This document shows, piece after piece, positions 4,011 to 42,302 of a stretch of 54,146 bases of DNA. Under the pieces are notes generated by a model, which saw only the letters and a program-made list of their open reading frames with translations, did no database searches and was not told where the DNA came from. Source of the DNA: a virus; the IMG/VR virus record IMGVR_UViG_3300032309_001150, positions 1 through 54,146 of that record; one strand, written 5' to 3'. The position numbers and the translations under genes are program-made. The number at the start of each line of letters is the position of its first letter. The stretch's first letter is position 1.

Positions 4011-5257
4011 TAGAAAGTTCCCCCGCTGACACCAGTAGTAAAGTTTCCTGAACCAGTAATAGCAAGGCCAGTGGCGGTTGTGTTGGAAATCAAGCTTCCA
4101 AGAATGGAGATACCAAGCTGGCCGCCGCCGGGGCGGTAAATGCCAGTGTTTGCTTCGGACGCAAAATACAGCGATGGGTTTGAGGCAGAGCCGTTGACCA
4201 TTGCAACTACAGAGCCGCCAACAGTTGTTGTGTTTGCATTAAAAAAGTTTGTGCCATCGCAAACTACGGTTGCTTGCGTGTTGCTGGGCACAGATACCGT
4301 TAGGCCAGTTGTCGTGCCAACAGTCAGGGTGTAAGCGCCCGTAGTCTGGTTGCTAATAACGTACAAGTTCACAACAGGCGGAAAATAAACCGTCACGTTG
4401 CCAGTCAATGCTCCCGTGTAAGACTGAATGGTGTTTGATGCCTCAGATGCGGTCAACGTGTATGTTCCGCTTACAACAGGCTTTGTCAGCGCGGTAAAGG
4501 TGAATTGAGTGCTGACGCCGTAACCAACGGTCACATAGGATGTGCCTGTGCAGATAATGAACGCCGAGTCTCCGGGGGCAAACAACTTTGCCGATGACGT
4601 TCCATCCAACAATTCACTGCTGGTAGTGCCCAACGACAGCGTGCCAGTGCCGTTGTTCTTCAGCAAAGCAAACCAGTTTGCGCCTAGCGTTGATGCCAAC
4701 GGCAAGGTAACCGTTCCAGCGCCACCAGATGTTGGCCACACCTGAACTTGCGCCCGATCTGCCGTAGTGAACGTATATCCATTTACCAGAGATATTGTCG
4801 GATGGCTTTGGTTGAGGGTCAAACCACTTGCAAGCAGGCCGTACCCAGCAAGGGTCGCCGCATCAGCGGATGATGTGCCAGCGCCAAATGTAAATACGCC
4901 CCAAACACCGTTGGTGGTGCTGTTGTTGGTTAGATAGATGTATTGGGCGGTTCCTGCGGCAACGGTGACAATTGTTGTGCCGCCTGTGGTCTGCACCGCC
5001 AGTGCAGTTGCGCCAGTGTTTCTGATGAGCGCGTCAGTTCCAACAGAAGCCTGCGAAGCTGGCGGCATTTTCAAAGCATAGGACGTCGAGGTCGTGGTGA
5101 CGTCCATGATGCGGGCGGCCACATTGTTTTCGTCCGAACCGTTTGCAGGCCAAACTAATTGCAAGCTTCCGGTGCTTGAAGTAAGCGCATAGGAAACGTA
5201 GCTGACGTCCGTTGGAACAACGACGTCGCCAGTGAATGGGGAGATGTATGAGGTCAT
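4010..5257 (-). CDS. Fibre-like virion protein with repetitive beta-rich sequence
   Basis: A 415-residue protein almost devoid of charged residues and dominated by Thr, Ser, Gly, Val and Asn, typical of trimeric fibre shafts or surface decoration domains. Near the C-terminus (around residue 367) the segment SLYFASEANTGIYRPG resembles the junction that precedes the end domain in many phage tail-fibre proteins. No catalytic motif is visible. The gene begins 4 nt inside the adaptor gene and ends where the nozzle gene begins, so it is expressed with the tail. Which virion site it occupies is not shown. Confidence 0.65.
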   Translation of the reverse strand: MTSYISPFTGDVVVPTDVSYVSYALTSSTGSLQLVWPANGSDENNVAARIMDVTTTSTSYALKMPPASQASVGTDALIRNTGATALAVQTTGGTTIVTVAAGTAQYIYLTNNSTTNGVWGVFTFGAGTSSADAATLAGYGLLASGLTLNQSHPTISLVNGYTFTTADRAQVQVWPTSGGAGTVTLPLASTLGANWFALLKNNGTGTLSLGTTSSELLDGTSSAKLFAPGDSAFIICTGTSYVTVGYGVSTQFTFTALTKPVVSGTYTLTASEASNTIQSYTGALTGNVTVYFPPVVNLYVISNQTTGAYTLTVGTTTGLTVSVPSNTQATVVCDGTNFFNANTTTVGGSVVAMVNGSASNPSLYFASEANTGIYRPGGGQLGISILGSLISNTTATGLAITGSGNFTTGVSGGTF

Positions 5258-34770: not shown

Positions 34771-35001
34771 CTAAGTCTCAACAGCCTTGATTTTATTCGA
34801 CTTTTCCTTCTTGTGCAAGAACATTTGGCGCTCACGGATGGCGTCGATCTCCGCCCACAGCTTGATGCCATACGGGTGGGTAGCCTCGTAGCCACCGACC
34901 TTCAGGGTTTCGTAACAGTCGTTCAACGCCCGTTGAAGTTCCGTTGGACCGTAGTTGACCAAACGCATGCGGGCCTGCTCGATGAAGTGCTGGTGGTTCA
35001 T
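34771..35001 (-). CDS. Small soluble early protein
   Basis: A 76-residue helical protein (begins MNHQHFIEQARMRL, with WAEIDAIRERQMFLHKKEKS near the end). It overlaps the preceding gene as ATGA and ends the leftward early operon, just before the hairpin at 34741-34758. No recognisable domain; the basic C-terminus may bind nucleic acid. Confidence 0.7.
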   Translation of the reverse strand: MNHQHFIEQARMRLVNYGPTELQRALNDCYETLKVGGYEATHPYGIKLWAEIDAIRERQMFLHKKEKSNKIKAVET

Positions 35002-40614: not shown

Positions 40615-40843
40615 GATCATCGACCTCGGTGAACGGTTTGACAGGCGGGTGGTTGAACACCACCTTGCCGGGTATTTTGGTCAGGCCGTAGTCGGGCTCC
40701 TTTCCCCACGCATGCTCGGAACACTTGCGCCAGCCCATGTTGACCGACCACCGCTTGCCGCACCCAGCCACTTGGCACATCAGGGACTTGCCCTCGTTGG
40801 CATCCATGTCGAACTTGTCCAATTTTGGTTTTTCGAATGTCAT
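40601..40843 (-). CDS. Small zinc-finger-like early protein
   Basis: An 80-residue protein with C23-x4-C28 (MCQVAGCGKRW) and C41-x2-H44 (KCSEHAW), a likely single zinc site. It overlaps the replication-protein gene upstream by 4 nt and the next gene downstream by 14-20 nt. Close linkage to a replication protein suggests a DNA-related role, which is inference. Confidence 0.72.
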   Translation of the reverse strand: MTFEKPKLDKFDMDANEGKSLMCQVAGCGKRWSVNMGWRKCSEHAWGKEPDYGLTKIPGKVVFNHPPVKPFTEVDDHGPY

Positions 40844-41583
40844 TTGTTGTACTTCCCATCAATGATTTTTTGAAAATTGGTCGCGTTGACCACCCACTCC
40901 AGATCTGGAACCCACACCCGGCCCTTAGTTTCGAAGCCTTTTGCCAAGGTTGTGTCATCGGCAATGTAGGCAAAAAAGCTTTCCCACCACTTCAGACCGT
41001 CAGAAACGGTTCTATATCCATTTTTTGAAAAAGGTGAGGGTTTGGATGCCTGCACCCATCTTTGCCGCATATTGGCCTGTCTGGAGCCCTCCCAGACCCG
41101 TGGTTGTGGCAGGTGCGGGAGCTTGGCCAACCAAAGCTTCAAAATTTCTTGGTGCGGGCAGGTTGGAAACGCAGTTTCCGACAAAGAAGCTTTAGCTTCT
41201 TTAATTTGGTTATTGGTTATTGGTTCATGGTTATTGGTTGGTTGAACGTCCGTTGAACGGGCGTTGCTCCTGCGTTCAGCAGATGCTTTGCCAGCGCGGG
41301 ACGCTTGGTCAACTTTCGCCTTGTAATGCTGGATTTCGTTCAACACGCGATCGCACACCCAACCCTCGCCGTAGCGATTGAAAAACTCGGCCAGCACGTC
41401 GCTGACTACGGCGGCGTGGTCGCGCAAACGGATCAGCCTCGCAATTTCTGCGGCTTCAAGCGGCAATGGTTTTTCGTGGAGATAGCACCAATCGAGCATC
41501 CGGCGGTAGGCTAAATCTTCAATTGGATCGAGGTGCGCTGTGTGGGACTGGTAGTCGCCAATATTGAACTGGTAGTAGTGCAT
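40840..41583 (-). CDS. DUF1376-type replication protein
   Basis: A 247-residue protein. The N-terminal ~85 residues (YYQFNIGDYQSHTAHLDPIE, then DLAYRRMLDWCYLHEKPLP) are a DUF1376 domain, usual in phage replication initiation proteins. The middle is a Ser/Asn/Arg-rich linker with a repetitive NNHEPITNNQIKEAKASLSE stretch. The C-terminal region (~165-247) contains SDGLKWWESFFAYIADD and WVPDLEWVVN, as in primosome-type replication proteins. In the absence of a helicase or polymerase it probably recruits host replication proteins to a phage origin. The 114-nt region before it holds a promoter. Confidence 0.82.
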   Translation of the reverse strand: MHYYQFNIGDYQSHTAHLDPIEDLAYRRMLDWCYLHEKPLPLEAAEIARLIRLRDHAAVVSDVLAEFFNRYGEGWVCDRVLNEIQHYKAKVDQASRAGKASAERRSNARSTDVQPTNNHEPITNNQIKEAKASLSETAFPTCPHQEILKLWLAKLPHLPQPRVWEGSRQANMRQRWVQASKPSPFSKNGYRTVSDGLKWWESFFAYIADDTTLAKGFETKGRVWVPDLEWVVNATNFQKIIDGKYNK

Positions 41584-42258: not shown

Positions 42259-42302
42259 ATTGTAACTCATGTCAACCGATTCGTTTAACGTCCCGTTAAA
42301 CA
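42259..42302. promoter_or_regulatory. Divergent early control region (operator copy D)
   Basis: AACCGATTCGTTT (42274-42286, one arm mismatch) overlaps the perfect inverted repeat TTTAACG-TCC-CGTTAAA (42284-42300). Leftward, a TACAAT (42264-42259) lies 9 nt beyond the first element. Rightward, TGTCAACCGA is followed after 17 nt by TAAACA (42297-42302). A direct repeat AAGCGAATCAT occurs at 42312-42322 and 42331-42341, the second covering the first rightward start codon. Confidence 0.7.

Follow-up and report, generated by a model that had tools for sequence, protein, structure and literature searches.

In phage lambda the origin of replication lies within gene O, in the linker codons that separate the N-terminal domain, which binds DNA, from the C-terminal domain, which binds partners, and is made up of four 18-bp iterons spaced 20–24 bp apart, an A-rich tract and an inverted repeat. 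According to the abstract of a study on phage P1, its lytic origin oriL has likewise been postulated within the initiator gene repL, and replication falls when an AT-rich part of repL is altered synonymously (PMC9948254). Plasmid Rep proteins of the winged-helix type are known to bind iterons as well as a single strand of the repeated unwinding element, in a model in which both are bound at once (PMC4081077). Here we describe an element at 41183–41267 of a viral DNA of 54,146 nucleotides (IMG/VR record IMGVR_UViG_3300032309_001150, positions 1 to 54,146, hereafter the window), located in the linker codons of a gene encoding a 247-residue replication initiator with a DUF1376 domain. The element is most likely the origin of replication of this phage, embedded in its own initiator gene. 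DUF1376 is a common phage domain that is still labelled as having no known function, and the element would give it a concrete role.

A lambda-like origin inside the replication gene had been proposed by the sequence-only reading of this DNA. It is the best reading of the DNA-level selection, the lambda-like order of the parts, the winged-helix initiator and the replication genes found next to it in relatives. The repeat sequence quoted at that time was found letter for letter at 41206–41241. Tandem Repeats Finder (TRF) confirmed a real array within the linker, with a period of 7 bp, and not the 12 bp claimed earlier, and 4.9 copies of the unit TTGGTTA on the + strand. The 11-bp direct repeats and the palindrome that flank the array had been missed (Table 1). 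On the coding strand, which is almost G-free here, the array unit is AACCA followed by two variable bases. When up to two mismatches are allowed, the window has 7 occurrences of TTGGTTATTGGTT, where 1.9 are expected; four of the 7 lie within the array, and none of 100 shuffles reached this count. Of the 35-bp segments of the 54 kb, the one at the array is among the 0.3% with the lowest stability. The 11-bp repeats adjoin the array on its N-terminal-coding side and have the coding-strand form GTTCAACG; TRF gave 2.4 copies, with an exact pattern match at 41241–41258.

The array codes for approximately residues 115–126 of the protein. A pure heptamer array runs into a TAA stop whichever frame is used, and the stop is dodged by an altered base in about every third unit, e.g. 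AACCAAGAACCAATAACC. The same codons serve both DNA and protein, and the 7-bp period is reconciled with the reading frame and with the avoidance of TAA. The opposite strand would be free of stops, yet the arrays examined have the A/C-rich strand as their coding strand. This points to a constrained polarity of the array relative to the gene, with the caveat that a peptide from the opposite strand would be hydrophobic. In one related locus (L097, array near 5115 of the reverse complement) a unit reads TAACCA where related loci show GAACCA, giving an in-frame stop past the DNA-binding half of the gene; this is either a nonsense allele or an assembly error. A two-tier G-quadruplex on the TTGGTTA strand was considered as a general function and rejected, as the ACACA and AAACA arrays found in other lineages have no GG runs there.

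Selection on the DNA was assessed by keeping the protein fixed, reshuffling synonymous codons and comparing the self-similarity of the linker at each lag (threshold p ≤ 0.01). Among 64 dereplicated homologues (<85% identity), lag 7 was above the null in 54, lag 14 in 50 and lag 11 in 28, and the remaining lags from 4 to 15 in at most 4. Extension to lag 22 added lags 21 and 22 only, which are multiples of 7 and 11. For the window itself p was 0.004–0.006 at lag 7 and 0.006 at lag 11. Since neither 7 nor 11 is a multiple of 3, a repeat in the protein does not explain the signal. The lag-7 signal was not raised in the N- or C-terminal parts of the 64 genes. A lag-11 signal was seen in the N-terminal part of 16 of them and maps to a second group of linker-like 11-bp repeats, present in about a third of the genes; no such second group is evident in the N-terminal coding part in the window. 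Lambda O, included as a positive control, gave lags 20 and 23, the spacings of its annotated iterons. Figures on codon choice are partly circular, as the arrays were picked by motif, and the randomisation test was relied on instead.

The palindrome gave p 0.025 against synonymous randomisation. Covariation was analysed in 22 distinct sequences, with the pair positions set by the protein alignment and not by a search for palindromes. The nine pairs were 83% Watson-Crick, against 26–38% with the partner slid, and nine further pair types were observed, against two or three when slid. The residues encoded by the paired positions change jointly (Ala/Ala, Ser/Asp, Gly/Pro, Pro/Gly). The repeats and the palindrome are preserved as DNA rather than as protein.

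The protein is a YdaU-type DUF1376 member (PF07120; E 4.8e-20, 72.2 bits against a cut-off of 30.1), with a winged-helix N-terminal domain, a disordered linker and an O-like/primosomal C-terminal domain. Matches of the C-terminal part in PHROGs are to primosomal and replication initiation O-like proteins. The AlphaFold2 model, computed from 46 relatives, places a winged-helix-like domain at approximately residues 11–95 and a C-terminal domain from about residue 144. Its predicted local distance difference test score is below 50 only at residues 105–137, and this sole disordered stretch is the one encoded by the element. Alignment to solved structures with VIA-align gave modest matches (Z 5–6.5), mostly to winged-helix DNA-binding proteins. 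A Foldseek search of the PDB with the model gave no significant match, and searching the solved structures by sequence yielded no useful hit. The gene that follows in relatives often encodes a DnaB-type helicase, a DnaC- or IstB-like ATPase, a primase/helicase or a 'replication protein P'.

Comparison between lineages separates the two kinds of repeat. The core of the unit varies across whole arrays (AACCA, ACACA, ACCCA, AAACA, AACCG) with period 7 kept, and the types of 11-bp block include GTTCAACG and GCGAACGCATT. In 62 of the 64 homologues the 11-bp block is located upstream of the array. It correlates with the N-terminal domain (partial Mantel 0.40, p 0.003, corrected for the C-terminal domain) and not with the C-terminal domain (-0.09), whereas the 7-bp array correlates with neither. 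Furthermore, the gene of Stenotrophomonas phage SOVA965 shares its C-terminal domain with the window protein and has a different N-terminal domain; it carries no 7-bp array, and its 11-bp repeats differ. Together with the Mantel result, this is consistent with recognition of the 11-bp repeats by the DUF1376 domain and with a generic unwinding array beside them. Based on the analogy with lambda and the correlation with the N-terminal domain, it is more likely that the iterons bound by the initiator are the 11-bp repeats and that the 7-bp array is the unwinding region.

At least 119 stretches of viral contigs contain the exact 20-mer, and among the matches listed about 109 (approximately 90%) are in DUF1376-type genes. 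A control heptamer of equal composition gave one match. Two other controls were discarded: the reversed pattern was unusable, as TTGGTTATTGGTTATTGGTT is identical when read backwards, and three copies of TGTGTTA proved to be a heptamer type of other phages, outside DUF1376 genes and mostly intergenic. Arrays of the TAACACA heptamer were indeed seen in other phages (L226–L235), outside DUF1376 genes and often right before a start codon. A BLAST search of the element against annotated phages returned 24 records, and those checked fall in the DUF1376 gene; the hosts are Moraxella, Acinetobacter, Vibrio, Thalassomonas, a Methylophilaceae bacterium and unknown hosts. The Moraxella phages match the linker DNA at 93% identity over 56 bp, and the protein match is approximately 38–41% identical. 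Period 7 is also significant in Pseudomonas phage MR13 and Chlorobiaceae phage CV-1-33. In Rhizobium phage N28_2 and in the Plectonema phage there are 11-bp repeats only. As some DUF1376 genes carry the 11-bp repeats without the 7-bp array, the former may be the more general component, and the second element can differ in form. In Pseudomonas phage UFJF_PfDIW6 (L242, 1210–2010) the DUF1376 gene has 11-bp repeats of the type GTTCAACGACC, and after them an AAGAG pentamer array replaces the heptamers.

The repeats could instead form an autoregulatory operator, or an immunity or incompatibility site, by which the initiator or a repressor controls transcription or copy number, with the origin located elsewhere. 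The linker-like 11-bp repeats within the DUF1376-coding part of about a third of the homologues would suit this explanation, as would the AACG...CGTT palindrome between divergent genes at 42283–42301. However, the block lies over 300 nt into the gene, with a low-stability array after it and, among close relatives, also a palindrome, neither of which an operator needs. We also know of no operator role for a 7-bp array, and an operator is in our opinion improbable. Expansion of a neutral microsatellite by slippage in an unconstrained linker would account for the pure heptamer arrays that other phages carry between genes (about 10 of the 119 listed matches, and the TAACACA loci). It does not agree with the concentration of the listed 20-mer matches in one gene family, the fixed order next to the 11-bp repeats, the near-identical DNA in phages of unrelated hosts or the covariation of the palindrome, and is considered very improbable.

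A further alternative is that selection acts on the protein, the linker being a flexible or binding segment (PITNNQ, NHKPITNNQ) with a codon bias. All 119 listed copies of the 20-mer do read PITNNQ in the open frame, but this is forced by stops in the other two frames and was not used as evidence. The signal is destroyed by a randomisation that preserves the protein, the linker is predicted to be disordered, and in other lineages the peptide differs (THNTEHKTQDT, TENREPRTENQ) with period 7 kept. In addition, the residues paired across the palindrome change together as DNA complementarity dictates. There is hardly any probability left for this explanation.

Several observations weigh against the element being an origin. 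No recognisable helicase or loader gene adjoins the initiator gene in the window. The 7-bp array does not occur in every DUF1376 gene: E. coli ydaU has none, nor do a Nitrosomonas contig and the phages tested from Rhizobium, Komagataeibacter, Plectonema, Microcystis and Azospirillum, and several of these also have no 11-bp repeats. The palindrome is significant in close relatives only, and the correlation of the 11-bp block with the N-terminal domain may partly reflect physical nearness.

If the element is the origin, the mechanism that we infer would begin with binding of the winged-helix DUF1376 domain to the 11-bp repeats, which are spaced one helical turn apart. The bound complex would melt the neighbouring low-stability 7-bp array, and the initiator or a partner would hold one strand of the array, repeat by repeat. 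The C-terminal domain may then bring a helicase or helicase loader to the bubble, with the palindrome marking the far edge, as in lambda ori. More broadly, DUF1376 phages may use a distinct origin grammar, in which group-specific 11-bp iterons are combined with a nearly G-free array of period 7 that serves as a generic single-strand ladder, is exchangeable between initiators of different specificity and is common to phages of proteobacteria and Chlorobiaceae; we give this generalisation an even chance. The origins of DUF1376 phages are unmapped as far as could be found, and the element predicts the exact position of the origin in many phages from sequence alone. The iteron specificity of the whole initiator family becomes directly testable.

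Table 1. Features of the proposed origin and its gene in the window
Feature	Position	Strand	Basis or location
Replication initiator gene, 247 aa, DUF1376 (YdaU-type)	40840..41583	-	Pfam, PHROGs, AlphaFold2 model
Perfect palindrome AAAGAAGCT-TT-AGCTTCTTT	41183..41202	.	C-terminal-coding side of array
7-bp array, proposed unwinding element	41206..41239	-	TRF; synonymous-codon test
11-bp direct repeats GTTGAACGTCC GTTGAACGGGC GTTGC on + strand, proposed initiator-binding iterons	41241..41267	-	TRF, lag test
Second short DUF1376-only open reading frame, 109 aa	41698..42027	-	Directly upstream of initiator; Pfam E 8.9e-13

A tandem short DUF1376 open reading frame comparable to that of the window was found in 13 of 80 related loci, and its product is possibly a regulator of, or a competitor for, the same DNA sites. 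The GC skew shifts near 38–42 kb, coinciding with a switch in gene direction at approximately 42.3 kb. Within 1 kb of the element a search for DnaA boxes gave one weak match alone. An inverted repeat, GTTTAACG-TCC-CGTTAAAC, is located at 42283–42301 between divergent genes, near a YdaS-like gene; its arms, AACG...CGTT, resemble the 11-bp repeats and it is possibly an operator. Another CGTTCAACGCCCGTT-like pair, an exact match to one iteron pattern, lies far from the proposed origin at 34914–34949 and may be due to chance, as an equal total was reached in 3 of 100 shuffles.

No paper linking DUF1376 to an origin was found in the searchable literature, which does not cover most subscription journals, and the proposed variant with 11-bp iterons, a strand-asymmetric 7-bp unwinding array and a palindrome was not found described there. 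The P1 initiator RepL is unrelated to the DUF1376 initiator. Plasmid iterons are approximately 17–22 bp long and, unlike the repeats described here, lie outside the gene. The parallel with P1 oriL is the location within an initiator gene, and the abstract of that study mentions no 7- or 11-bp array (PMC9948254). Iteron plasmid origins, such as RK2 oriV with TrfA and F with RepE, share with this locus a winged-helix initiator and iterons beside a repeated unwinding element (PMC4081077, PMC10797057), but the unwinding repeats of RK2 are 13-mers and no sequence relation to the element was seen. In the Rac prophage of E. coli, which has a reported active origin, oriJ, the DUF1376 gene ydaU stands beside the ATPase gene ydaV (PMC3945230). 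The linker of ydaU carries GTTCAAAC-like repeats; in contrast to the window, its strongest lags are 23 and 10 and it has no 7-bp array.

In organisation the element resembles the lambda origin. Because the repeats differ in length and spacing, the element is not a lambda ori by sequence: 18-bp iterons at 20–24 bp spacing were not found, the lags in the window being 7, 11, 14 and 22 (the last two are multiples of the first two). Regular 7-bp units stand where lambda has its A-rich tract, and the N-terminal domain is DUF1376. Nevertheless, the linker codons contain direct repeats, the putative 11-bp iterons, that are kept in relatives, and the 7-bp array forms an adjacent region of low stability, as in a lambda-type embedded origin. 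The coding-strand order of iterons, A-rich tract and inverted repeat in lambda matches the order of the parts here, and the C-terminus of YdaU shows homology to the C-termini of several phage O proteins.
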